Origin: Neptunicoccus cionae | GTDB taxonomy: Bacteria; Pseudomonadota; Alphaproteobacteria; Rhodobacterales; Rhodobacteraceae | Length of the DNA: 64,000 nt | Assembly (NCBI RefSeq): GCF_002860325.1 | Contig: NZ_PKOJ01000002.1 | Location: forward strand, 62,001-126,000 | Direction: 5' to 3' | Part shown: positions 41,014 through 55,385 of the stretch, piece after piece | How the letters are laid out: each line of letters opens with the position of its first letter | How positions within the stretch are numbered: the first letter of the stretch is position 1 | Made by a program: the position numbers and the translations under genes | Notes under the pieces: generated by a model | The model's database searches: none | Told to the model about the DNA's origin: nothing | The model's input: the letters and a program-made list of their open reading frames with translations, nothing else

Positions 41014-41174
41014 TATGTTAGCCGAATAAAAGCCTGTAAACCTTACGACATCCGTCGGAACGGTTATTTCAAAAAGATTAGATCCCGGCCGTTCGACACC
41101 GGTTTTCCGGCACCGCAAAACTTGAAATGACTTGGCTGCTCCGTTACCCTCCCTGTCAAAATTCGGAGGTGACT

Positions 41175-43043
41175 ATGACCACGCATAGCTTTAACGCTTT
41201 CAGAGCAACTGACAAAAAAGACGTCCTGACACTGGTTAACAAGAATTCCAGTGTCTCCATGACTTTCAATCACATCGGGGAAACCCTGAGCTACCAGCAT
41301 TTTGACGACGACCCGAAAGGCCTGCCTGCGGTCAAACTCAAAACAGTGCCCCAGCAGGTTGTTATCGACGGTGAGATCTTCAACGGCATAGATGACTTTT
41401 ATGACATTGACGTCGGACGCCTCACCTGGGGCGACGGCAATGAATCCGACGTCATGCTGATCCACCTTTCACGGACAGAGTTTGTGTTCATCAATATTGC
41501 AGGTGATCCGGTGGAGATAGAATCCACTGCGGAACTTCGCAGTTTCGTTTCAACCCTGACCGGAGAAAGCCCGATCCTGTCCGGCGATCTTGCAGCGAAC
41601 CAGTCTTTCAGTTTCACCCGTTTCACCGATCATGTTGCCGTCACCGAAGATGATAACATTACCGGAACGGAGGGTGACGACAGCTACCGTCTTGGCGCCG
41701 GAGACGACACGGTCAACGCCCTTGGCGGTTCGGACCTGATTGACGGCGAAGATGGCAACGACACCCTTTTTGGCGGCGACGGGCAGGATTTCCTTTACGG
41801 TGGCAAAGGGGCTGACCATCTTTACGGCGGGGCGTCCGGTTATGCCACTATGTTCGGCACGGACCAGCTTTTCGGAGGAGCAGGCAAGGATTCCCTGTTT
41901 GGCGGCCCCGAACAAAGCGAGCTTTACGGCGGTGGCGGGCGCGACAAGCTTTATATTCAAGAAGGGAACGGCGTGGCCTATGGCGGCGGCGGCGGTGACA
42001 AGATCTACCTTGAAACGGAGCTGTTTGGCGGCGCATTCGAGATGCAGGCCTATGGCGGCAAAGGTAACGACAAGATTTTCGGCGGCAACGCGTCGGATTA
42101 TCTTTACGGCGACGACGGAGGCGACCTGCTGAAAGGTGGCAAGCGAGGCGATTTTCTGGACGGGCGTGCAGGTAACGACCGGTTGTTCGGTGGCAGTGGC
42201 GACGACCAGTTGAAAGGCGGAGACGGCGATGACTTGCTCTACGGACAGAACGGTGCCGATGTGTTTTACGGGGGCACCGGTGCGGACCAGTATTTTGGCG
42301 GCAAGGGCAAGGACACAGTATCGTATGAACTCAGCAAAACCGGTGTTACCGCCTCTCTTAAGGATGACGCCAAAAATGCCGGTGCCGCTGACGGAGACAG
42401 TTTCAACAACATCGAAAACCTTTCGGGAACCCATTCCCACGACCACCTGACTGGCGACGGGGGAAAGAACAGCATTGCAGGGTTTGCCGGCAATGACGAA
42501 ATCTACGGCGGGGGCGGCGCAGACCGCATGTCGGTGGATGATGGCAACAACAGTCTCTACGGCGGCAAGGGCAAGGATAATATGGAAGGCTTCGGTATAG
42601 GAGTGAACCATTATTACGGCGGCGCAGGGGATGACTTTATCTGGGATGAATCCGGCGGAGCCACAGTTTATGGCGGCGCAGGGCGTGATTACATTGAAAC
42701 TTTCGGCGCGAACGACCTGATCTTCGGTGGTGCCGGCAAGGACGACATCCACAGCGGCAAAGGCAATGACACAGTCAGCGGCGGTGGCGGCGAAGACAAT
42801 TTCTACTTTGACACGGATTTCAACGACCGCCTGACCATTACAGATTTTCAGGATGACGTTGACACGCTGTTCTTCGACCACGATCTTTACGAGGACAAGA
42901 AAGGCGACCCCACCAGCATCGCAGCCTTCATGGATAAATATGCCGATGAGGTGGATGGGGACGTGATCTTTGATTTCAACAACGGAAACAAGGTTGTTGT
43001 TATGGGCATGACCAAGATGGACCTTGTCGACGACCTCGCCTGA
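41175..43043 (+). CDS. RTX (hemolysin-type calcium-binding repeat) protein
   Basis: This 622-residue acidic protein is predicted to be secreted by a type I system. After about 160 residues of N-terminal sequence that I do not recognise (VLTLVNKNSSVSMTFNHIGE to SGDLAANQSFSFTRF) comes a run of GGxGxDxxx nonapeptide repeats to about residue 550. These form calcium-binding parallel beta rolls. No protease, lipase or adenylate-cyclase motif is visible. The C-terminal ~70 residues (NDRLTITDFQDDVDTLFFDH onward) resemble the cap and secretion region of such proteins. The ATG at 41175 has GGAGGTGACT upstream. No type I secretion genes are adjacent. Confidence 0.92.
   Translation: MTTHSFNAFRATDKKDVLTLVNKNSSVSMTFNHIGETLSYQHFDDDPKGLPAVKLKTVPQQVVIDGEIFNGIDDFYDIDVGRLTWGDGNESDVMLIHLSRTEFVFINIAGDPVEIESTAELRSFVSTLTGESPILSGDLAANQSFSFTRFTDHVAVTEDDNITGTEGDDSYRLGAGDDTVNALGGSDLIDGEDGNDTLFGGDGQDFLYGGKGADHLYGGASGYATMFGTDQLFGGAGKDSLFGGPEQSELYGGGGRDKLYIQEGNGVAYGGGGGDKIYLETELFGGAFEMQAYGGKGNDKIFGGNASDYLYGDDGGDLLKGGKRGDFLDGRAGNDRLFGGSGDDQLKGGDGDDLLYGQNGADVFYGGTGADQYFGGKGKDTVSYELSKTGVTASLKDDAKNAGAADGDSFNNIENLSGTHSHDHLTGDGGKNSIAGFAGNDEIYGGGGADRMSVDDGNNSLYGGKGKDNMEGFGIGVNHYYGGAGDDFIWDESGGATVYGGAGRDYIETFGANDLIFGGAGKDDIHSGKGNDTVSGGGGEDNFYFDTDFNDRLTITDFQDDVDTLFFDHDLYEDKKGDPTSIAAFMDKYADEVDGDVIFDFNNGNKVVVMGMTKMDLVDDLA
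41665..42830 (+). repeat. RTX nonapeptide repeat region
   Basis: This in-gene region encodes imperfect nonapeptides of the GGxGxDxLx type, for example GGDGQDFLY, GGKGADHLY, GGSGDDQLK and GGGGEDNFY. It is interrupted near 42310-42440 by a non-repeat insert (SYELSKTGVTASLKDDAKN). Repetition is at protein level, with varied codons, so it is not a DNA tandem array or a CRISPR. Confidence 0.85.
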
Positions 43044-43151: not shown

Positions 43152-43182
43152 TGTGATCACATAATTTTGACGTGTGATCACA
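43152..43182. promoter_or_regulatory. Two TGTGATCACA operators upstream of sucC
   Basis: The perfect 10-bp palindrome TGTGATCACA occurs at 43152-43161 and again at 43173-43182, starts 21 bp apart, or two helical turns. A TATAAG element at 43201-43206 could be a -10 box, which would place the second palindrome over the -35 region. The same palindrome lies just upstream of the gntR gene at the end of this cluster, so these are inferred to be binding sites for that regulator. The pairing suggests cooperative binding of two dimers on one DNA face. Confidence 0.75.
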
Positions 43183-43288
43183 AATTAGCGTATTTGCGCC
43201 TATAAGCGGAAAATTCTGCTTTTTCCCTTCAAACGCAATGCGGGATGTGCGACCAACGGGTGAATTCTTTGCCTAAGGGACAGCTCGC

Positions 43289-44482
43289 ATGAACATTCAC
43301 GAATATCAAGCCAAGCAACTTTTGAAAGAATACGGTGCTCCGGTATCTGACGGCCGCGTGGTTCTGCGCGCCGAGGATGCCAAGACCGCCGCAGGAGAGC
43401 TGGACGGCCCGCTTTGGGTGGTCAAGGCCCAGATCCACGCCGGTGGACGCGGGAAAGGTTCTTTCAAAGAAGAATCTGCCGGTGAAAAAGGCGGTGTGCG
43501 TCTGACCAAATCCGTAGAAGAAGCCGCCGAAGAAGCCCGCAAGATGCTGGGCCGCACGCTTGTGACCCATCAGACAGGTCCGGCAGGCAAGCAGGTCAAC
43601 CGCATCTATATCGAAGACGGTTCCGGCATCGAAAAAGAGCTGTACCTCGCCCTGCTGGTTGATCGCGTATCCAGCCGCGTTTCCTTTGTTGCCTCTACCG
43701 AAGGCGGCATGGACATTGAAGAAGTGGCCGCGAACACTCCTGAAAAGATCGTGACATTCTCGGTTGATCCGGCGTCCGGCCTGTCCGCATTCCACGGCCG
43801 CCGCGTGGCCTTTGCTCTGGGCCTTGAAGGCGCACAGATCAAACAATGTGTTCAACTGATCTCCACGCTTTACAAAATGTTCGTTGAGCGTGACATGGAA
43901 ATGCTCGAAATCAACCCGCTGATCGTGACCGACAAGGGCGACCTGAAATGTCTCGACGCGAAAATGGGTTTTGATGGCAACGCTCTGTACCGTCAGAAGG
44001 ATATTCTGGCATTGCGGGATGAGACCGAAGAAGACCCCAAAGAACTGGCCGCTTCCAAATTCGACCTGAACTACATCGCTCTGGACGGTGAAATCGGTTG
44101 TATGGTGAACGGTGCCGGTCTGGCGATGGCTACTATGGACATCATCAAACTCTACGGTGCAGAGCCTGCCAACTTCCTTGATGTGGGTGGCGGTGCGACA
44201 ACCGAAAAAGTGACCGAAGCCTTCAAGATCATCACTTCTGACCCGAACGTCAAAGGCATTCTCGTCAACATCTTCGGTGGCATCATGCGCTGCGATGTGA
44301 TCGCAGAGGGCGTTGTTGCTGCTGTGAAAGAAGTCGGCCTTCAGGTTCCACTGGTTGTGCGTCTGGAAGGCACGAATGTGGAAGAAGGCAAGAAGATCAT
44401 CAACGAGAGCGGCCTTGCCGTGATTGCTGCCGACGATCTGGGCGATGCTGCACAGAAGATCGTTAAAGAGGTCAAAGGCTAA
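43289..44482 (+). CDS. sucC: Succinyl-CoA synthetase beta subunit (ADP-forming)
   Basis: SucC and SucD interconvert succinyl-CoA and succinate with substrate-level phosphorylation in the TCA cycle. The 397-residue beta subunit has the ATP-grasp N terminus [19 protein letters not shown]. It also has [27 protein letters not shown] and the C-terminal CoA-ligase half with [25 protein letters not shown] precedes the ATG. It is the first gene of a nine-gene operon, downstream of the two palindromic operators. A 21-bp inverted repeat lies between it and sucD. Confidence 0.97.
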
Positions 44483-44484
44483 TG

Positions 44485-44536
44485 TAGGGCGGGGTTCACC
44501 CCGCCAGCGCTTTCCGGCGGGGTGAACCCCGCCCTA
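44485..44536. repeat. 21-bp perfect inverted repeat in the sucC-sucD gap
   Basis: The arm at 44485-44505 (starting TAGGGCGGGG, ending CCCCGCC) is exactly complementary to 44516-44536, with a 10-base spacer. Each arm is itself partly palindromic (GGCGGGG...CCCCGCC). It starts just after the sucC stop codon and leaves 26 bases before sucD. It has no T tract, so it is unlikely to be an ordinary terminator. It resembles the short repetitive extragenic palindromes scattered in many bacterial genomes, and in the transcript it would stabilise or process the sucC-sucD mRNA. Confidence 0.85.
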
Positions 44537-44562
44537 CCCTAAATTACCAAGGAACAAACACT

Positions 44563-45444
44563 ATGGCCGTACTCGTAAACAAGAACACCAAAGTTATATG
44601 TCAGGGCATTACCGGCTCTCAGGGGACTTTCCACTCCGAGCAGGCGATTGAATATGGCACGCAGATGGTTGGCGGTGTCACACCGGGCAAAGGCGGGCAA
44701 ACCCACCTGAACATGCCGGTTTTCAACTCTGTCCATGAAGCCAAAGCCAAGACCGAAGCCAATGCTTCCGTGATCTACGTACCCCCGCCCTTTGCTGCGG
44801 ATTCCATTCTGGAAGCGATTGATGCGGAAATGGAACTGATCGTCTGCATCACCGAAGGTATTCCGGTATTGGACATGATGAAGGTGAAACGGGCGCTTGA
44901 AGGCTCCAAATCCCTGCTGATCGGTCCGAACTGCCCGGGCGTTATTACACCGGGCGAATGTAAAATTGGCATCATGCCGGGCCACATCCACAAGCCGGGT
45001 TCAGTGGGCATCGTTTCCCGCTCCGGTACGCTGACATATGAGGCCGTTGGCCAGACATCTGCTGCCGGTCTCGGCCAGTCCACGGCCATCGGTATCGGTG
45101 GTGATCCGATCAAAGGCACCGAGCATATCGACTGTCTGGAAATGTTCCTTGCGGACCCTGACACCCATTCCATCATCATGCTGGGTGAAATCGGCGGTTC
45201 CGCCGAAGAAGAAGCTGCGCAATTCCTGAAAGACGAAGCCAAGAAGGGCCGTTCCAAGCCTTGCGCCGGTTTCATCGCGGGCCGCACAGCGCCTCCGGGC
45301 CGTCGCATGGGCCATGCCGGTGCGATAGTTGCAGGCGGCGTCGGTGGCGCGGAAGACAAGATCGAAGCGATGAAATCTGCTGGAATCGTTGTTGCTGACA
45401 GCCCTGCCGGACTCGGTGAAGCTGTTCTCAAGGCTATCGGCTGA
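44563..45444 (+). CDS. sucD: Succinyl-CoA synthetase alpha subunit
   Basis: The 293-residue alpha subunit binds CoA and carries the phosphorylated His. The N-terminal CoA-binding Rossmann domain has [17 protein letters not shown] and [33 protein letters not shown] and [10 protein letters not shown] follow. The active-site His is His251 in [20 protein letters not shown] precedes the ATG. Its stop shares one base with the next start (TGATG), coupling it to the unknown secreted-protein gene. Confidence 0.97.
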
Positions 45445-46151
45445 TGCCCCGCCGCCCTGAAGGTTGCGCGGAAGTTGCGCACATATTCCTGACTGGCGGC
45501 TCTAAACTGACAAGGCGCGCCTGTCGCGCCTTGTGTGCCTCGCTTTTTGCAGCATGTGCCTCTGCGGCCCATGCTTTTGACGCGGCAGCCTGCACCACCC
45601 CTGTTCAGACCATAGCCGAGCTTGAGACAGCTTTGGGGGCTGACGGCTGGAGCGTTGTGGAAAAGCAAAGCAAACCCGTGATCGAGGCGCTGGCCTGGAT
45701 CGGGATGCCGCAGTATTTTGCGGGTGACAGCGGCGGGCGTTCCCAGTCTTACGTGCTGGATCTGAAACGAAACACTGCAAAGGGCTATTTTCGCAAGAAA
45801 GACCTGCCGAATGCCCAGACCCGCATTCTGACCCGAAGGGTTGGACGCGATACCGAACTGGTGCTTGTTTCGTGGCTGAAAACGTCCTTGATGGAAATCA
45901 ACCTCACCTGCGACTTCGCCTTGAGCGAGACCACCACCGCCCCCTTGCGCAATGACCATTCGCCCCTAGCTTATTCCAAAGGGTACGCCCGCGTGCCGAC
46001 GATGAATTCCGCTGAAAACGGAGCACCCTCTTCTGTACAGATCGTCTTTCTGGACAGCGAAACACTGAAATCAGGCTTGAAAACCAATATTCCGGCCTCC
46101 GCAATCTTCTCAACCTCCCTGAGCTATCCCGCAAAGGACCACACACCATGA
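45444..46151 (+). CDS. Unknown exported protein between sucD and sucA
   Basis: I do not recognise this 235-residue protein. It has a long N-terminal region with a basic stretch and a hydrophobic core (ALCASLFAACASAAHAFDAAAC), so it is probably exported to the periplasm. The mature part has several Cys, a Trp-rich segment ALAWIGMPQYF, LVLVSWLKTSLMEI and a polar C-terminal half. The only usable start, ATG 45444, overlaps the sucD stop (TGATG), and its stop overlaps the sucA start (ATGA). It is thus translationally coupled on both sides to TCA-cycle genes. Base composition looks like its neighbours, so recent transfer is not indicated. Confidence 0.8.
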   Translation: MPRRPEGCAEVAHIFLTGGSKLTRRACRALCASLFAACASAAHAFDAAACTTPVQTIAELETALGADGWSVVEKQSKPVIEALAWIGMPQYFAGDSGGRSQSYVLDLKRNTAKGYFRKKDLPNAQTRILTRRVGRDTELVLVSWLKTSLMEINLTCDFALSETTTAPLRNDHSPLAYSKGYARVPTMNSAENGAPSSVQIVFLDSETLKSGLKTNIPASAIFSTSLSYPAKDHTP

Positions 46152-49105
46152 CCGAACTTCCTTCCAACGACCAGTTTAACGCTGAGAGTTTTTTGCAGGG
46201 ACATAACGCTGAATATATCGAACAGCTTTATGCGCGGTTTACCAAAGATCCCGCTGCGGTGGATGCAGCATGGGCCGAGTTTTTCCGTTCAATGGACGAT
46301 CCGGCCAAGGATGTGCAGGCGGAAGCCGCCGGTCCAAGCTGGGCCCGTAGCGACTGGCCTCCCCAGCCCAATGACGAGTTGACAGCAGCACTGGACGGTC
46401 AATGGGGAGTAGACCCGAGTGCGAATGCCGAGAAGAAAATCACTGAAAAAGCTGCTGAACAGGGCGTGGCTATTTCCGAGACACAAGTGCGTCAGGCAGT
46501 ACTGGATTCTGTTCGCGCACTGATGCTGATCCGCGCTTACCGGATTGTTGGCCATCTGGCGGCTGATCTTGACCCGCTAAACATGCGCAAGACCGGCGAC
46601 CTGCCCGAACTGAAGCCGGAAAACTACGGCTTTACTGAAGCAGACATGGACCGCCCGATCTTCCTTGATAACGTTCTGGGGCTTGAGACAGCCACCATGC
46701 GGGAAATCCTCGAGATTGTGAAACGCACTTATTGTGGCACTTTCGCGCTGCAATACATGCATATTTCCGATGCGGAACAGGCAAGCTGGCTGAAAGAGCG
46801 GATTGAAGGATTTGGCAAGGAAATCCATTTCACCAAAGAAGGCCGTCGTGCCATCCTGCAAAAGATGGTCGAGGCTGAAGGTTTCGAGAAATTCCTGCAT
46901 GTGAAATACACCGGCACCAAACGGTTCGGTCTGGATGGCGGCGAGAGCCTGATCCCTGCGATGGAGCAGATCATCAAACGGGGCGGTGCGCTTGGCGTTC
47001 AGGACATCATTATCGGGATGCCCCACCGTGGCCGTCTGAACGTTCTGTCCAACGTTATGCAAAAACCCTTCCGCGCGATTTTCAACGAATTTCAGGGCGG
47101 CAGCTTCAAACCCGAAAGCGTGGATGGCTCGGGCGATGTGAAATACCATCTCGGCGCGTCCTCTGACCGGGAATTCGACGGAAATTCGGTTCACTTGTCG
47201 CTGACGGCTAACCCGTCCCACCTTGAAGCGGTAAACCCTGTGGTTCTGGGCAAGGCCCGCGCCAAACAGGAACAGCTTAACGATACAGAGCGCACCAAGG
47301 TTCTCCCAATCCTGCTGCACGGCGATGCGGCCTTTGCAGGGCAAGGTGTGGTTGCGGAATGCTTCGGCCTGTCCGGTCTGAAAGGTCACAAGACCGGCGG
47401 CACGATCCATATCGTGGTGAACAACCAGATCGGCTTTACCACGGCGCCGCACAATTCGCGCTCCAGCCCCTATTGCACCGATATTGCCCTGATGGTGGAA
47501 GCGCCGATCTTCCACGTGAACGGCGACGATCCGGAAGCTGTGGTTCACGCCGCCAAAGTCGCGATCGAGTTCCGCCAGAAGTTCAACAAGGATGTGGTGA
47601 TTGACATCATCTGCTACCGTCGTTTCGGGCACAACGAGGGCGACGAGCCCATGTTCACCAACCCTGAAATGTACACCCAGATCAAGAAGCACAAAACCAC
47701 TCTGGCAGTTTACACAGAGCGTCTGGTTAAGGACGGTCTGATCCCCGAAGGCGAAATCGAAGACCAGAAGGCAGCGTTTCAGGCCTATCTGAACGAGGAG
47801 TTCGAAGCCGGTAAAACCTATAAACCCAACAAGGCCGACTGGCTGGACGGGCGCTGGTCCCATCTGGACAAACGGGGCGAGGATTACCAGCGCGGGGCCA
47901 CATCGGTGGACGAAGACTCCCTGCGCAAAGTTGGCGAGGCGCTAACCACCCTGCCCGACGGGTTCAACGTACACCGCACCGTGTCCCGTCTGCTGGAAGC
48001 CAAGAAAGAGATGTTCGCCACCGGCAAGAACATCGACTGGGCCACAGCCGAGGCGCTGGCCTTTGGCACCTTGCTGCGCGAAGGCTATCCCGTGCGACTT
48101 TCGGGGCAGGATTCTACCCGCGGCACGTTTAGCCAGCGGCACTCCGGTATCATCGACCAGAAAACCGAAGAACGGTATCTGCCGCTGAATCACATTGCGG
48201 ACAAACAGGCAAAATATGAAGTCATTGACTCCATGCTGTCGGAATACGCCGTACTCGGCTATGAATACGGCTACACCCTTGCCGAACCAAATGCCCTGAC
48301 GCTTTGGGAAGCGCAGTTCGGCGATTTCGCCAACGGCGCGCAGATCATGTTCGACCAATTCATCTCCTCGGGCGAAAGCAAATGGCTGCGGATGTCCGGT
48401 CTGGTCTGCCTCCTGCCCCACGGCTATGAGGGACAAGGACCGGAGCACTCCTCTGCCCGTCTGGAACGCTTTCTAACCATGTGTGGCGGGGACAACTGGA
48501 TTGTTGCGAACTGTACAACACCTGCGAACTACTTCCACATCCTGCGCCGCCAGATGCACAGGACTTACCGGAAGCCGCTGATTTTGATGACACCCAAATC
48601 CCTGCTACGCCACAAGCTTGCAGTCTCCACTCTGGAAGAAATGGCTGAAGGCTCCAGCTTCCACCGTGTGCTCTGGGATGATGCGCAATACGGTAATTCG
48701 GAGACGAAACTGGTAGATGACGCAAAGATCAAACGGGTCGTTCTGTGTTCCGGCAAGGTTTATTATGACCTGCTGGAAGAGCGGGACAAACGGGGCATTG
48801 ATGACATCTACCTGCTGCGTCTGGAACAGTTTTACCCGTTCCCGGCCCACTCTATGGTGACAGAGCTGCAACGCTTCCCCGATGCAGATTTTGTCTGGTG
48901 TCAGGAAGAACCCAAGAACCAGGGGGCCTGGTCCTTTGTAGAGCCGAACATCGAATGGGTTCTGACCCGCATCGAACATAAGAACACCCGCCCGTCCTAC
49001 GTGGGCCGCAACGCTTCGGCGTCTCCGGCAACAGGTCTGGCAAGCCAACATAAAGCAGAACAACAAGCGCTGGTGAATGAAGCGCTGACATTGGAAGGAC
49101 ACTGA
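46148..49105 (+). CDS. sucA: 2-oxoglutarate dehydrogenase E1 component
   Basis: The 985-residue thiamine-diphosphate enzyme decarboxylates 2-oxoglutarate and passes the succinyl group to SucB. Family features in order are the N-terminal E2-binding segment ([18 protein letters not shown]), the [16 protein letters not shown] core, and the thiamine-binding region [15 protein letters not shown] to [25 protein letters not shown] and [17 protein letters not shown] lie in the C-terminal half. The start overlaps the previous stop as ATGA. SucB begins 2 bases after its stop. Confidence 0.97.
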
Positions 49106-49107
49106 TC

Positions 49108-50649
49108 ATGGCCGAGGTAAGAGTACCGACACTAGGCGAAAGCGTAACCGAAGCGACAATCGCCACATGGTTCAAACAACCCGGTGACAGTGTTGCCGTG
49201 GATGAAATGCTGTGCGAGCTGGAAACAGATAAAGTTACCGTCGAAGTGCCTTCCCCCGTGGCTGGCACTTTGGGCGAAATCGTTGCTGCCGAAGGCGAAA
49301 CCGTTGGCGTGGACGCACTGCTTGCCGTTATCAGCGAAGGCGGCGAAGCGACAGAGGCGCCTGCCAAGGCAGACACATCTGCCGAGGCGAAAGAGAGCGC
49401 GCAACCCGCAGACAACACAGCCAAACCGGCTGAGGGCGGCGCAGAAGTTCCTGTTATGGTCCCGGCTCTTGGTGAAAGCGTAACCGAAGCCACCGTTGCC
49501 ACATGGTTCAAAGCCGAAGGCGACGAAGTCGCTGCGGATGAAATGCTCTGTGAACTGGAAACCGACAAGGTGTCTGTCGAGGTTCCGGCCCCTGCTGCCG
49601 GTATCCTGACCAAAATCTACGCCGGTGACGGTGTTACGGTTGAAGCAGGCGCAAAACTGGCGTTGATCTCGGAAGGGGCCGGAAACGGTGCGGCCAAATC
49701 CGAACCTCAAGCAGTTGCTGCAACGGCTTCTCCACAAGTGACCAGCGACGGGATGAAAAACGCGCCTTCCGCTGAAAAACTGATGGCAGAAAAAGGTCTG
49801 ACAGCGGATCAGGTCACCGGCACAGGCCGTGACGGCCGGATCATGAAAGAAGACGTGCTGAAGGCCGAAGCCTCTGGCGGTGCGTCCAAACCGGCGGCTG
49901 CTACACCCCCACGGGCTGCTGCGTCGGCTCCTGTCGCTGCGGATCAGGCCGGACGCGAGGAACGGGTGAAGATGACCCGCCTGCGCCAGACCATCGCGCG
50001 TCGTCTGAAAGACAGCCAGAACACCGCCGCCATGCTGACCACCTACAATGAGGTGGACATGACCGAGGTGATGGCCCTGCGCAATGAATACAAAGACCTG
50101 TTCCTGAAGAAACACGGTGTGAAGCTCGGCTTCATGTCCTTCTTCACCAAAGCCTGTAACCACGCGCTGAAAGAAGTGCCCGAGGTGAACGCCGAAATCG
50201 ACGGTACAGATATTGTTTACAAAAACTACGTGAACATGGGGATCGCTGCGGGCACACCAACAGGACTGGTGGTTCCGGTGGTTAAGGATGCGGACAGCAT
50301 GTCTTTCGCCGAAATCGAAAAGGAAATCGCCCGTCTGGGTGGTCTGGCCCGTGACGGCAAACTGTCTATGGCAGATATGCAGGGCGGCAGCTTCACCATC
50401 TCCAACGGTGGCGTGTACGGCTCTCTGATGTCCTCGCCCATTTTGAACCCGCCGCAATCGGGTATTCTGGGGATGCACAAAATTCAGGACCGTCCGATGG
50501 CGATCAACGGCGAAGTTGTGATCCGTCCGATGATGTATCTGGCCCTGTCCTACGATCACCGCATCGTGGATGGCAAAGGGGCTGTGACCTTCCTTGTTCG
50601 GGTTAAAGAAGCCCTTGAAGATCCCCGTCGCCTGTTGATGGATCTTTAA
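49108..50649 (+). CDS. sucB: Dihydrolipoyl succinyltransferase (E2) with two lipoyl domains
   Basis: This 513-residue E2 core of the 2-oxoglutarate dehydrogenase complex is unusual in carrying two tandem lipoyl domains. Lipoylated Lys residues are expected at Lys42 and Lys154, each in ELETDKV. Ala/Pro-rich linkers separate them from the peripheral-subunit-binding domain ([20 protein letters not shown]) and the catalytic domain, where DHRxxDG is [10 protein letters not shown] with His484 and Asp488. E. coli SucB has a single lipoyl domain. The start lies 2 bases after sucA. Confidence 0.97.
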
Positions 50650-50655
50650 CCAATT

Positions 50656-50680
50656 CGGCGGGCTGCACTGCGGCCCGCCG
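50656..50680 (+). other. Hairpin between sucB and the MAPEG gene
   Basis: CGGCGGGC (50656-50663) pairs with GCCCGCCG (50673-50680) around a 9-base loop, just after the sucB stop. It is followed by CTCTCCTC with no T tract. It may slow or partly stop transcription inside the operon, or protect the 3' end of the sucAB message. Confidence 0.5.
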
Positions 50681-50714
50681 CTCTCCTCATTGGCGCCGGT
50701 AAGGAAGATGCAAG

Positions 50715-51125
50715 ATGACCACTGAGATCACAGTCCTGACCTACGCGGCCCTGCTGCAAGTGGTGCAATTCGCGCTGATGTCGATTTCCGCCAATCTGGA
50801 TGTTGGACCGGGCAAAACCATGTCGCCGCGCGATCCGTCCCGACTGGGCAAACCTGTGCAGGAATTGCTGTCCGAAAAGCCGGGCCGCCTGTTCCGCGCC
50901 TTTAACAACCATTTCGAAGGCCTGATCCTGTTTACCATCGCCGTTGTGGTCGTTACCCTTGGCGAGCAGTCTACCGGCTTTACCGCGATTTGCGCCTGGG
51001 TCTATCTCGGCGCTCGTATTCTCTACATTCCGGCCTATTACTACGGCCTTGCGCCGGGTCGTTCGATCATCTGGTTTGTCGGGTTCCTTGCAACTGTCTT
51101 TATGCTGCTGGCTGCACTGGTATGA
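50715..51125 (+). CDS. MAPEG family membrane protein
   Basis: This 136-residue membrane protein has about four hydrophobic helices: VLTYAALLQVVQFALMSIS, EGLILFTIAVVVVTLG, FTAICAWVYLGARILYI and [20 protein letters not shown]. The conserved RAFNNHFEGLILF and YLGARILYIPAYYYGL place it in the MAPEG family (microsomal glutathione transferase-like). Glutathione-dependent activity of bacterial members is largely unproved. AAGGAAGATG lies upstream of the ATG. Its stop overlaps the next start as ATGA. Its location inside the suc-lpd operon is notable and unexplained. Confidence 0.88.
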   Translation: MTTEITVLTYAALLQVVQFALMSISANLDVGPGKTMSPRDPSRLGKPVQELLSEKPGRLFRAFNNHFEGLILFTIAVVVVTLGEQSTGFTAICAWVYLGARILYIPAYYYGLAPGRSIIWFVGFLATVFMLLAALV

Positions 51126-51775
51126 TTGCGCTCGACCATATTGCGCTGGCGGCAGCCACCCTGTCCGAAGGCGTTGACTATGTAATGGCGCGGAGCGGCG
51201 TGACAGTGCCGTTCGGCGGTGCCCATCCCGGTCGCGGCACCCATAACGCGCTGACCGCCACCGGCGGGGGTACCTATCTGGAGATCATCGCCCCTGATCC
51301 CGAACAGGATGAACCGGAAACGCCACGCCTTTTCGATCTGGACGCGACAACCACCCGCGCTGCGCTGATGGGCGGGCCGCGGGTCCAGACCTATTTGCTC
51401 CGTACTGATGATATCGAACGGGACATGGCTATCTTCCGTGAACACGGTTTTGATCTTGGCGACTCCGTTACCGCTGCACGAGGCGACCTGCGCTGGAAAA
51501 TCGCGCTGCGCCCCGATGGAAAACTGAACGCCCAAGGGGTGGTTCCGGTGCTGTTGCAATGGCCCGAAGGCCCCCATGTAAGCGAGAGCATGGACAATCA
51601 AGGCTTTGCCCTGCACCGGCTTGAAATCCGCACTCCGCTGGCGGACGAACTTACATCGCTCTACCGTGCCCTTGGCCTTGTAGACGACCGAATTAAGGTG
51701 ATCCCTGCGGCAACCCCCGCGATCATCGCAACCTATCAAACCCCGGACGGCAAACTGGCCGTATTGGGCGACTGA
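51122..51775 (+). CDS. VOC/glyoxalase-like domain protein
   Basis: This 217-residue protein starts [20 protein letters not shown], the usual entry to a vicinal-oxygen-chelate fold. [11 protein letters not shown] provides the typical metal-binding Glu on an early strand. The second half is longer than single VOC modules and fits the glyoxalase-like family with two beta-alpha units ([13 protein letters not shown]). The substrate is not known. The start overlaps the MAPEG stop by 4 bases and the gene ends 20 bp before lpdA, so it is a member of the operon. A detoxifying or dioxygenase-like role is only a family-level guess. Confidence 0.85.
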
Positions 51776-51795
51776 CACCTAAAAGGAGACCTATC

Positions 51796-53184
51796 ATGGC
51801 AGACTATGACGTAATCATCATCGGTGGTGGCCCGGGCGGCTATGTCTGTGCGATCCGCTGTGCGCAACTCGGCCTGAAAACCGCCTGTGTCGAAGGCCGT
51901 GGCGCCCTTGGCGGCACCTGTCTGAACGTGGGCTGTATCCCGTCCAAAGCCTTGCTGCACGCGTCGCACATGCTGCACGAGGCAGAGCACAACTTCGCGA
52001 AAATGGGTCTGAAAGGCAAAAGCCCTTCTGTCGATTTCAAACAGATGCTGGCCTATAAAGACGAGACCATTGCGCAAAACACCAGTGGCGTTGAGTTCCT
52101 GTTCAAGAAAAACAAGGTCGACTACCTGCGCGGCTGGGGCAAGATCACCGGCAAGGGCGAGGTATCCGTTGATGGCGAAGTGCATAAGGCGAAAAACATC
52201 GTTATTGCCACAGGTTCCGAACCGTCTGCACTGAAAGGTGTCGAGGTTGACGAGAAAGTCGTCGTGACCTCCACAGGTGCGTTGGAACTGCCCAAAGTTC
52301 CAAAAACCATGGCTGTAATCGGTGCCGGCGTGATCGGGCTGGAACTCGGCTCTGTCTACTCCCGTCTTGGTACTGAAGTGACCGTGATCGAATACCTCGA
52401 TCACATCACGCCCGGCATGGACAAGGAAACCGGCAAGGCGCTGCAACGGGTGCTGAAGAAACAGGGTCTGAACTTTGTTCTGGGGGCCGCAGTTCAGAGC
52501 GTCGAAACCACCAAGACCAAAGCCAAACTGACCTACGAGACCCGCAAAAAAGGCGAATCTGTTACGATTGATGCCGACGTGGTTCTGGTTGCCACAGGGC
52601 GCAAACCCTTCACCGACGGTCTGGGCTTTACCGAACTTGGCGGCGAGATGACCGAACGGGGCCAGATCAAAACCAACGATACCTGGGGCACCAACATTGA
52701 CGGTGTCTACGCCATTGGGGACGTTATTGAAGGTCCGATGCTCGCCCATAAAGCCGAAGACGAAGGCATGGCCGTGGCAGAACAGATCGCAGGTAAGCAC
52801 GGTCACGTGAATTACGGCGTGATTCCGGGTGTGATCTACACCACACCCGAAGTGGCTTCTGTTGGCAAAACCGAAGAGCAACTGAAAGACGAAGGCGTTG
52901 ACTACAAGGTCGGCAAATTCCCCTTCATGGGCAACGGCCGCGCCAAGGCAGTGCATCAGGGCGACGGTTTTGTAAAACTTCTGGTGGACAAAAAGACAGA
53001 CCGGATTCTGGGGTGTCACCTGATCGGCCCGTCTGCCGGTGATCTGATCCATGAAATCTGTGTGGCGATGGAATTCGGTGCCTCTGCACAGGATGTGGCG
53101 CTGACCTGCCACGCCCACCCCACCTTCTCTGAAGCGGTGCGCGAAGCTGCACTCGCCTGCGGCGACGGCGCAATCCACGCGTAA
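51796..53184 (+). CDS. lpdA: Dihydrolipoyl dehydrogenase (E3)
   Basis: This flavoprotein reoxidises the dihydrolipoyl groups of SucB with NAD. The 462-residue protein has the FAD-binding [10 protein letters not shown] near the N terminus and the redox disulfide Cys42-Cys47 in [13 protein letters not shown]. The NAD-binding [11 protein letters not shown], the FAD-contacting [13 protein letters not shown] and the C-terminal catalytic His-Glu pair in [10 protein letters not shown] are all present. AAAAGGAGA precedes the ATG. Together with sucA and sucB it completes the whole 2-oxoglutarate dehydrogenase complex in one operon. Confidence 0.97.
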
Positions 53185-53190
53185 CGGGTA

Positions 53191-53919
53191 GTGGAATTAT
53201 CTCTTCTGGCCGCCGGCGCGCTCGTCGGCGGTTTTGTGAACGGTCTGACAGGGTTCGGCTTTGCCTTGATGTCCGCCGGTTTCTGGCTGATCGTTCTTCC
53301 CCCCACAACTGTCGTGCCCCTGATGGCCACCTGCATGGCCTGTGGCCAGTTGCTGACCATGCCGCGGATCTGGCGCATGATCGAGGTAAGACGCGTGCTG
53401 CCCCTGACACTGGGCGGTCTGATCGGTGTGCCTTTCGGCATCGCCATGCTGCCCCATGTGCCGCTGCCCCAGTTCAAAGCAGGTGTGGCCCTCCTGATCT
53501 GTCTGAACCTGCTGTTTGTTCTGGTGCTGCAAAACCGCATTACCCTGCCACGACGGGGCGAACGGTTCCACTTTCCCATTGGTATTCTGTCAGGAATATT
53601 CGGGGGCATTTCTGCGCTGTCCGGTGTTGTCACGACCATCTGGGCCGGGCTGTTCGGCTGGACCAAACAGGAAAAGCGCGGGGTTTTTCAGGCTTTCAAC
53701 CTGTCGATGGCTTTGTTTTCGCTGTGCCTGTTCGGCTATTGGGGTTTTCTGGACAAACAGTTCTTTTACACCGCCCTGTTCGTAATCCCGTTAACCCTGA
53801 TCGCTGCTACAATCGGGCTGCGCGTGTTCGAGCGGATTGGCAATGCAGGGTTTACCAAAGTCATCAATCTGCTGCTGGGCCTGTCGGCATTGAACCTGCT
53901 GGTTTCAGTGTTCTTCTAG
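53191..53919 (+). CDS. TauE/SafE family permease (suc operon copy)
   Basis: This 242-residue polytopic membrane protein has the duplicated TauE/SafE motif GGFVNGLTGFGFALMSAGFW at the N terminus and GILSGIFGGISALSGVVTTIW in the second half, with about eight helices. Family members are proposed to move sulfite, sulfonates or other small anions. The GTG start is 6 bases after lpdA, so it is the last gene of the operon. It ends 3 bases before the convergent gntR. It is divergent from the family member at 28589 and is not a recent duplicate. Confidence 0.87.
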   Translation: MELSLLAAGALVGGFVNGLTGFGFALMSAGFWLIVLPPTTVVPLMATCMACGQLLTMPRIWRMIEVRRVLPLTLGGLIGVPFGIAMLPHVPLPQFKAGVALLICLNLLFVLVLQNRITLPRRGERFHFPIGILSGIFGGISALSGVVTTIWAGLFGWTKQEKRGVFQAFNLSMALFSLCLFGYWGFLDKQFFYTALFVIPLTLIAATIGLRVFERIGNAGFTKVINLLLGLSALNLLVSVFF

Positions 53920-53922
53920 GCG

Positions 53923-54573
53923 TCAGCTGCCCAACATCCGCAGACCTTGGGTCACATCGGCCCGAATAGCCAGCTTCAGCCCCGGTTCATCTCCTGCCCG
54001 CAATGCTGCGATCGCAGTGCGATGGTGTCCGGCGGCGTTGGGTCTCTGCAAACGGGCGTAAAGGGCGCTCATTGTCGGGCCGAGCTGCAACCAGACCGTC
54101 TCTACCATCGCCAGCATCGCCGGAGCCTGCGCCCGCAGATAAAGTGTGCGGTGAAATTCCAGATTGCTGCGGATATAACCCACCGCGTCTTTCTTGACGA
54201 TCATCTGTTCGATGGTTGTGTTGATGTTCTGAAGCCGTTCAATCAACGCCAGATGCGCCCGTGGCTGCGCACGCGCGGCCAGTTCCGGTTCCAACAACGC
54301 GCGGATGGATGCCAGCTCTTCGATCCGTTCGGTGCTGAGTTGAGGCGCCGAAACGCGGCCGGTCTTGGACAGGGACAATGCGCCTTCGGCAGTCAGACGG
54401 CGCACCGCCTCCCGCGCGGGGGTCATGGAAACACCATAGGTTTCAGCGATACCCCGAATGGTGATCGCCTGCCCCGGCGTGATCTCTCCGTGCATAATTT
54501 CGCTGCGCAAGGCGCGGAACACCCGCTCGTGAGTCGGGGTTGTTATTTCGGTGGGGCGATCTGATTTGCTCAT
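53923..54573 (-). CDS. GntR family regulator, FadR (FCD) subgroup
   Basis: This 216-residue regulator has an N-terminal winged helix (HERVFRALRSEIMHGEITPGQ, ETYGVSMTPAREAVRRL, GRVSAPQLS) and a C-terminal FCD ligand-binding domain. The FCD metal-site pattern is seen in SIRALLEPELAARA, SNLEFHRTLYLRA and GHHRTAIAALRAGD. FCD regulators sense organic acids. The palindrome TGTGATCACA ends 9 bp before its start codon and recurs twice upstream of sucC, so it probably represses itself and controls the suc-lpd operon. Little room is left for a leader, and no Shine-Dalgarno is visible. It is convergent with the TauE/SafE gene. Confidence 0.93.
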   Translation of the reverse strand: MSKSDRPTEITTPTHERVFRALRSEIMHGEITPGQAITIRGIAETYGVSMTPAREAVRRLTAEGALSLSKTGRVSAPQLSTERIEELASIRALLEPELAARAQPRAHLALIERLQNINTTIEQMIVKKDAVGYIRSNLEFHRTLYLRAQAPAMLAMVETVWLQLGPTMSALYARLQRPNAAGHHRTAIAALRAGDEPGLKLAIRADVTQGLRMLGS

Positions 54574-54581
54574 GCGGATTT

Positions 54582-54591
54582 TGTGATCACA
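54582..54591. promoter_or_regulatory. TGTGATCACA operator upstream of gntR
   Basis: A perfect copy of the palindrome found twice upstream of sucC lies here, with a shared TTTGTGATCACA core when the copies are aligned. On the minus strand it ends 9 bp before the gntR start codon, so binding would block transcription or initiation. It supports negative autoregulation. Confidence 0.75.
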
Positions 54592-54698
54592 TTTCCGGCG
54601 ATTGTCAATGACCGAACAGCCTGAGGCGCGGAACCTTTGAGGCCTGATTTTAGCGGCCGCGAATAAGCCTTGTTACCGAAAAAACAGTTGTCCGCCCG

Positions 54699-55385
54699 TT
54701 ACAGAACAACACGGTGCAACTGTGCCCCGTTGTCCCTCAGCCATTGTCTCTGGGCCTGATAGTCCGGAAATATGGCTGCCACATGCGCCCAATAGGCCGC
54801 CGAATGGTTCATCTCCAGCAAATGGCACACTTCATGGGCCGCCACGTAATCCTGAACCGCACGCGGAGCCATGATCAGCCGCCACGAATACATAAGATTG
54901 CCATCACTGGTGCACGACCCCCATCGCGATCGGGTATCCCGCAGGGTGATCCGGGAAATCTTGCGCCCGACCTGTGCAGCGTAGCGTTCCGAGGCATGTG
55001 TCAGCCGGTCCCGTGCCAGAGCCTTGAGATAGGCGCGCAACTTGCCCGCCAATTGCTCTTGCGACCCGGGGACCACCAAGCCCTCTTTAGTAAACTCCAC
55101 GCGGCGCCCCTGCCCGTGCAGCAAAACGACAGGCACCCCGTCGATCAGGATCGTCCCGCCAAACACCGGCGTGATCCGGTCGGGCTGCTTGTCGAGATGC
55201 TTGCGCATCCAGCCTTCTTGCGCCGCCGCGAAGGCCAGCGCGTCCCGCTTCGCCGCGCGCTTTGGCATGGTCAGGCTGACCGTTCCGTCCACGTTGGAAA
55301 TGCGCAGCGAAAACCGCCGCGCCCGCGCGGATTTCTTCAACACTACAGCAATGGGCGGCGCCCCGATTTCAAAACTCTCCGGCAT
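54699..55385 (-). CDS. YgjP-like M48-type metallopeptidase (DUF45)
   Basis: This 228-residue protein has the zinc-binding motif HEVCHLLEMNHS (HExxH plus a downstream Asn-His) preceded by RDTRSRWGSCTSDGNL, the hallmark of the YgjP/SprT-like family. An N-terminal beta-rich region (ARRFSLRISNVDGTVSLTMP) precedes it. The ATG at 55385 has AAGGATA upstream; the longer frame from 55463 is unsupported. No signal peptide is seen, so it acts in the cytoplasm. Its cellular substrate is not known. Confidence 0.92.
   Translation of the reverse strand: MPESFEIGAPPIAVVLKKSARARRFSLRISNVDGTVSLTMPKRAAKRDALAFAAAQEGWMRKHLDKQPDRITPVFGGTILIDGVPVVLLHGQGRRVEFTKEGLVVPGSQEQLAGKLRAYLKALARDRLTHASERYAAQVGRKISRITLRDTRSRWGSCTSDGNLMYSWRLIMAPRAVQDYVAAHEVCHLLEMNHSAAYWAHVAAIFPDYQAQRQWLRDNGAQLHRVVL

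Follow-up and report, generated by a model that had tools for sequence, protein, structure and literature searches.

A tandem operator and a probable AkgR ortholog at the suc-odh-lpd and sdh operons of Rhodobacteraceae

The palindrome TGTGATCACA occurs twice upstream of sucC and once upstream of a convergent gntR gene at the far end of the suc-odh-lpd genes, which encode succinyl-CoA synthetase and 2-oxoglutarate dehydrogenase, in a 64-kb window of Neptunicoccus cionae (the whole stretch of DNA analysed, 64,000 nucleotides of contig NZ_PKOJ01000002.1). We consider it very likely that this gntR gene encodes the ortholog of AkgR and that the protein, presumably as a dimer bound to TGTGATCACA, activates suc-odh-lpd and sdhC while limiting its own level. 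A tandem arrangement of the same site is widespread before sucC and sdhC in the family Rhodobacteraceae, its presence follows that of the regulator gene, and most genomes that lack the regulator or hold only a broken copy have also lost the pair or retain only decayed sites.

Results

Operator sites in the window and in the genome

The preliminary description of this DNA had reported three perfect palindromes, all intergenic, and all were recovered. There are exactly three perfect matches to TGTGATCACA in the window (Table 1), for which dinucleotide shuffles give a mean expectation of 0.06, and three or more copies were reached in 0 of 100 shuffles. The two sites on the sucC side lie between the end of an open reading frame (ORF) at 43043 and the start of sucC at 43289; that on the regulator side is flanked by the start of gntR (minus strand, 54573) and the stop of the next minus-strand ORF at 54699. 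Since the genome of N. cionae (4.29 Mb) holds 8 copies of TGTGATCACA and 124 copies of the GTGATCAC core, copy number by itself says little, and the weight of the evidence is in position, tandem spacing and conservation. Four of the eight copies are found at suc (two), gntR (one) and sdhC (one). The copy at sdhC, on another contig, is perfect and has a partner with one mismatch 20 bp before it; the two-site layout is the same as at sucC, and the SdhC and SdhD products behind it were identified by Pfam. Two further copies fall in coding ORFs, for a pyrE-like phosphoribosyltransferase and an ABC permease, where a chance origin probably holds, and one stands upstream of an EamA transporter ORF.

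Conservation at sucC and sdhC

Our survey of sucC covered 89 regulator-positive genomes, including that of N. cionae, made up of 29 of the best 30 sucC loci and the 60 top-ranked among the matches listed; divergent genomes are under-sampled because the sample was taken from the top of the sucC matches. Paired GTGATCAC cores precede sucC in 88 of the 89, spaced by 21 bp in 79 genomes, 20 bp in 8 and 22 bp in one. The exception, G177, carries its pair directly 5' of sucA and next to mdh, with sucC elsewhere on the contig, apart from the odh genes. Twelve further genomes were reached through named regulator loci (some may repeat sampled species); eleven have the sucC pair and one (L336) has a single site. 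For sdhC, where 44 of 50 loci were parsed together, 5 others were checked separately and the last (L214) proved to be a region from another place, the pair is present in 31 of 34 parsed regulator-positive upstream regions and in 3 of 3 more, as against 1 of 12 regulator-negative regions (G114).

Some arrays depart from the simple pair. Triple operators in 21-bp steps were seen upstream of sucC in G135 and G191 (L367 14318-14369; L369 12609-12660). An additional tandem pair precedes fumC, another Krebs-cycle gene, in one genome (G042; L309 1500-1530), followed by TTGCAT, 17 bp and TATCAC at +67.

Co-occurrence of regulator and operator pair

When 198 family genomes were scanned in full for pairs of cores separated by 12-14 bases, 175 proved pair-positive (two pairs in 134, one in 38, three in 3), and the reversed control pattern gave zero matches in all 198. 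Genomes with a best E value of at most 1e-50 were counted as regulator-positive, a line chosen after the E values were known and inside which G054 (2.7e-51) and G033 (5e-54) barely fall; the regulator and pair tables were tallied by hand. The pair is present in 172 of 178 regulator-positive versus 3 of 20 regulator-negative genomes (Fisher 7e-17, a value overstated because the lineages are related and not independent), and the two states agree in 189 of 198 genomes. The conservation of motif and regulator together that the preliminary description had put forward for checking is thus borne out. Among the regulator-positive genomes without a pair, three (G122, G147, G166) are 71-76% complete, G155 has no detected sucC, and G040 carries a slightly degenerate pair at sucC.

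No core was found upstream of sucC in 14 of 16 regulator-negative genomes, the remaining two being G096 and G114; of two more such genomes, G195 has no core and G019 an intact pair. G109 holds only regulator fragments, broken by a stop and frame changes, together with a single decayed site, TGTGATCAAA. In G157 the best regulator match has several in-frame stops, but may be a paralog because it is only 40% identical; here too a single site, TGTGATAACA, is decayed. Mapped on a sucC tree of 52 rows, presence or absence of the regulator requires 8 changes; well-supported branches force at least 3. Such counts cannot separate gain from loss, and the broken copies suggest loss. When pairs of genomes were drawn on this tree in 200 pairings, all differing pairs pointed in the same direction in almost every pairing.

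Promoters of suc and sdh

Promoter scoring against local shuffles was applied to 90 suc and 32 sdh sequences, which include pairs from regulator-negative genomes (two at suc, one at sdh). Counted from the start of site 2, a sigma-70-like signal places the -35 element at +56/57 for suc (z 10.7 and 10.0) and at +67/68 for sdh (z 8.9 and 9.6), a difference in distance of roughly one turn of the helix. From these signals, the operators would lie near -88/-109 at suc and -98/-119 at sdh, positions that would suit activation and not occlusion.

The regulator gene and its own promoter

Upstream of the regulator, in the best 80 of 444 confirmed matches (many from the same genera), the core is present in 71 loci and the perfect 10-mer in 62. 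In 66 of the 80, TTGAC precedes the site by 11-16 bp, the distance being exactly 12 bp in 52; in 55 the site is followed after 7-8 bp by the first ATG. As 23 of the 66 TTGAC loci read GATTGAC, this element may be kept partly as the stop codon of the upstream ORF. In the family set, 26 of 30 regulator loci were parsed, with a site in 18 and the full layout in 17. Together with the sucC pair, these counts support the earlier proposal that the motif ties a GntR/FCD regulator to suc-odh-lpd and to its own gene, strongly so for suc-odh-lpd.

In the window, the conserved TTGAC position offers a candidate -35 element and, by spacing, a candidate -10 element that overlaps the operator (Table 1); the consensus promoter scan did not list this candidate (TTGACA, 17 bp, CACAAA). 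The gntR start codon stands about where transcription from it would begin. With the operator on part of the predicted -10 and the start codon near the predicted start of transcription, a leaderless mRNA and autorepression by occlusion are suggested; this layout makes self-repression plausible, on a promoter that is probably leaderless.

The regulator matches Pfam GntR (5e-14) and FCD (1.5e-17), both past the cutoff. Its predicted model (predicted local distance difference test score, pLDDT, 85.8) has a winged helix-turn-helix domain and an FCD domain of six helices (81-101, 108-126, 130-148, 151-174, 182-193, 196-214), the number by which the VanR-type FCD subfamily of GntR proteins is recognised. 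Metal-binding FCD proteins use Asp-His-His-His ligands; at the positions that we assign to these ligands, by motif rather than by structural superposition, the regulator has Asn137, His141, His184 and Asp206, all invariant in 25 aligned sequences. The nearest solved structure, both by sequence (E 3e-19) and by fold (TM-score 0.84), is McbR/YncC of Escherichia coli (PDB 4p9f). The two proteins differ in being only 26% identical and in their regulons, that of McbR/YncC comprising the biofilm gene mcbA.

Gene neighbourhood

The genes between the operators and the regulator are listed in Table 1. The ORF upstream of sucC (41127-43043; 638 residues) matches Pfam HemolysinCabind, the RTX calcium-binding nonapeptide repeat, in 11 stretches. 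A terminator-like hairpin followed by T residues is found at 43204-43221, in the interval from the operators to sucC. When the DNA from site 2 to sucC was searched for a conserved inverted repeat, the arms were a little longer than in shuffles (4.24 versus 3.66), with no fixed position.

In 20 relatives picked because suc lies close to sdhC, a single cluster of 6.6-11.1 kb holds suc, mdh, an mcl-like lyase gene, a mesaconyl-CoA hydratase-like gene and sdhC. In the genome of N. cionae, suc and the group mdh-mcl-maoC-sdhC are on separate contigs, but neither tandem operator is missing. This genome also holds a perfect single TGTGATCACA flanked by an HpcH/HpaI (mcl-like) lyase ORF and a small divergent ORF (L004 1501-1510). 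Zero core sites were found within 400 bp upstream of mdh and mcl in the suc-sdh intervals of the 20 relatives, so that this copy is not conserved there, and mdh and mcl are ruled out as regular targets. One core lies about 150 bp before mdh in G120, which stands outside the set of 20.

Table 1. Features of the window, with the genes of the sdhC locus L362
Feature	Sequence	Position	Strand	Remarks
Operator site 1 of tandem pair 5' of sucC (TGTGATCACA)	window	43152..43161	.	137 bp from sucC start codon, counted from site start
Operator site 2 of tandem pair 5' of sucC (TGTGATCACA)	window	43173..43182	.	21 bp after site 1 (start to start); 116 bp from sucC start codon
sucC, succinyl-CoA synthetase beta subunit	window	43289..44482	+	Pfam ATP-grasp_2, Ligase_CoA
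sucD, succinyl-CoA synthetase alpha subunit	window	44563..45444	+	Pfam CoA_binding, Ligase_CoA
ORF of 235 residues inside the operon	window	45444..46151	+	no Pfam match
sucA (odhA), 2-oxoglutarate dehydrogenase E1	window	46148..49105	+	Pfam E1_dh, OxoGdeHyase_C
sucB (odhB), dihydrolipoamide acyltransferase E2	window	49108..50649	+	Pfam 2-oxoacid_dh, Biotin_lipoyl, E3_binding
MAPEG family membrane protein ORF	window	50715..51125	+	between sucB and lpd; Pfam MAPEG
lpd, dihydrolipoamide dehydrogenase E3	window	51796..53184	+	Pfam Pyr_redox_2, Pyr_redox_dim
TauE/SafE-type permease ORF	window	53191..53919	+	final gene before the convergent regulator; Pfam TauE
gntR gene, probable akgR ortholog	window	53923..54573	-	convergent to the suc operon; Pfam GntR and FCD
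Candidate -10 (CACAAA) of regulator promoter	window	54580..54585	-	17 bp after the candidate -35, overlaps operator; placed by spacing, weak consensus match
Operator site 5' of gntR (TGTGATCACA)	window	54582..54591	.	8 bp between site end and gntR start codon
Candidate -35 (TTGACA) of regulator promoter	window	54603..54608	-	conserved TTGAC position
mdh	L362 (G000 contig C1)	1755-2714		
mcl-like	L362 (G000 contig C1)	3513-4523		
maoC-like	L362 (G000 contig C1)	5313-6344		
sdhC	L362 (G000 contig C1)	6661-7044		

Discussion

The arrangement of sites leads us to propose that a VanR-like GntR/FCD protein, presumably a dimer, would recognise TGTGATCACA in two settings. At the suc-odh-lpd and sdhC operons, two dimers would sit on the tandem operator, whose period of 20-21 bp corresponds to two helical turns and would place them on one face of the DNA; with -35 elements predicted about 56-68 bp past the operators, they would activate transcription of this segment of the Krebs cycle. 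At its own gene, the single operator over the predicted -10 of a probably leaderless promoter would block RNA polymerase. The net effect would be an activator that restrains its own level.

Several observations weigh against this proposal. Regarding the promoters, no sigma-70-like promoter was found in the suc region of the window itself, and expectation-maximization promoter discovery at suc recovered two blocks, one T-rich at about +19 and one purine-rich close to the start codon, and no sigma-70 motif; as a consequence, the activation geometry rests on the pooled relatives. The single best promoter falls inside the peak in just 24 of the 90 sequences for suc and 16 of the 32 for sdh, and weaker side peaks occur at +21/22 for suc (z 4.8) and at +57 for sdh (z 4.4). 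Regarding the sites, G120, placed in the same genus as N. cionae, has no pair at sdhC, and no pair was found genome-wide in G054 despite its regulator match. Conversely, G019, G096 and G114 have pairs though no regulator was found; G096 is 77% complete, and in G019 (210 contigs) and G114 (320 contigs, estimated 100% complete) the regulator gene may sit in an assembly gap. The tree-based paired test yields 3 independent pairs on well-supported branches, too few for significance. Finally, the core is missing at the regulator gene in 9 of 80 loci and in 8 of 26 of the family set, and autoregulation is for this reason not universal. The nine core-less loci include Jannaschia rubra, Roseovarius nubinhibens and two Rhodobacter metagenome-assembled genomes, and seven of them have TTGAC within 75 bp before the match.

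The preliminary description had read the same sites in another way, as a local switch in which the GntR protein represses suc-odh-lpd together with its own gene until an organic acid relieves the repression. Repressors are frequent among FCD proteins, the regulator has the FCD fold, several structural neighbours of its model carry repressor titles in the PDB, and the distribution of sites, tandem at suc and single at gntR, can be accommodated. The operator pair can even be read as a -35/-10 promoter; at this offset (-22) the mean score was the highest, and such a promoter would speak for occlusion, but the score stems from the operator letters themselves. Against it stand the pooled promoter signal, which lies 56-68 bp downstream of site 2 and thus off the sites, and the presence of the same pair before sdhC. 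Because this sdhC pair is on another contig, the regulon is not local, and one relative extends it to fumC; the local character of the switch has to be given up. The AkgR counterpart is, moreover, cited as an activator in a passage of PMC6365646, which speaks against repression of suc and odh as the main effect, and we therefore regard the repressor switch as unlikely.

It might also be argued that the sites belong to another GntR paralog or to a different factor altogether, the convergent gntR being linked by chance. Family genomes do encode many GntR relatives (15 matches in that of N. cionae, these being the candidates scored, of 35), and a passage of PMC6365646 proposes GTGATCAC for a GntR protein of Pseudomonas too, one that shares 32% identity with AkgR. 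Such an assignment is difficult to reconcile with the agreement of pair and regulator across the 198 genomes, with the disappearance or decay of the pair in most genomes that have a broken regulator or none, and with the site at the regulator's own promoter in most loci; we find it very improbable. As for mere chance, to which the eight genomic copies and the two within coding ORFs might appeal, its probability seems to us negligible: pairs at 20-22 bp recur at sucC and sdhC family-wide while the control pattern is absent, and for the suc, sdh and gntR sites a chance origin is refuted by the shuffles and by the conservation of the pair.

The activating, self-limiting GntR/FCD regulator proposed here has a close precedent. 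Imam et al. (2015) reportedly gave the name AkgR to RSP_0981 of Rhodobacter sphaeroides and described direct activation of Krebs-cycle genes. In the sections of PMC4344238 that concern it, the predicted targets of this GntR protein are sucCD, sdh and the genes for 2-oxoglutarate dehydrogenase, the same operons that carry sites here. A passage of PMC6365646 describes AkgR as an activator of transcription and gives GTGATCAC as one of its sites, the type of predicted site found in the window and its relatives, and the window protein shares the GntR family with its GntR and FCD domains. Because motif, regulon and family agree, the window gntR gene is the probable AkgR ortholog, an assignment drawn on these three features. 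What distinguishes N. cionae is that suc and sdh lie on different contigs and that the regulator is convergent to the suc operon. CceR, a LacI-family protein of alphaproteobacteria, resembles AkgR in acting on central carbon and Krebs-cycle genes in R. sphaeroides (parts of PMC4344238, for RSP_1663, and of PMC11323563), but belongs to another protein family and has a different predicted motif, [A/G/T]GTT-N6-8-AAC (PMC4344238). In the open-licence literature that was searched we found no system closer than AkgR. The system is thus mostly known; what is added here, with no claim of priority, is the tandem layout of 21 bp, the placing of an operator on a probably leaderless promoter, and the loss of regulator and sites together.

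It is tempting to generalise further, and here we see the arguments for and against as evenly balanced. One 10-bp operator would be used in two geometries across Rhodobacteraceae: a phased tandem (20-22 bp, sometimes triple), with suc and sdh promoter distances about one helical turn apart, would activate, and a single copy on a leaderless -10 would shut the regulator gene. On this view AkgR would activate the segment from 2-oxoglutarate to fumarate while limiting itself, its operators would decay after loss of the regulator, and fumC could be recruited.

What had been a guess from a single genome becomes a layout for the regulation of a central pathway that spans the family Rhodobacteraceae and can be tested. 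Both the expected sign and the scope are corrected, from a local repressor switch to a Krebs-cycle regulon that is probably activated. The family also provides natural experiments: in some genomes the regulator is lost or broken and the sites are decayed, two have triple arrays, one has its pair before sucA because sucC lies elsewhere, and one has an added pair before fumC.

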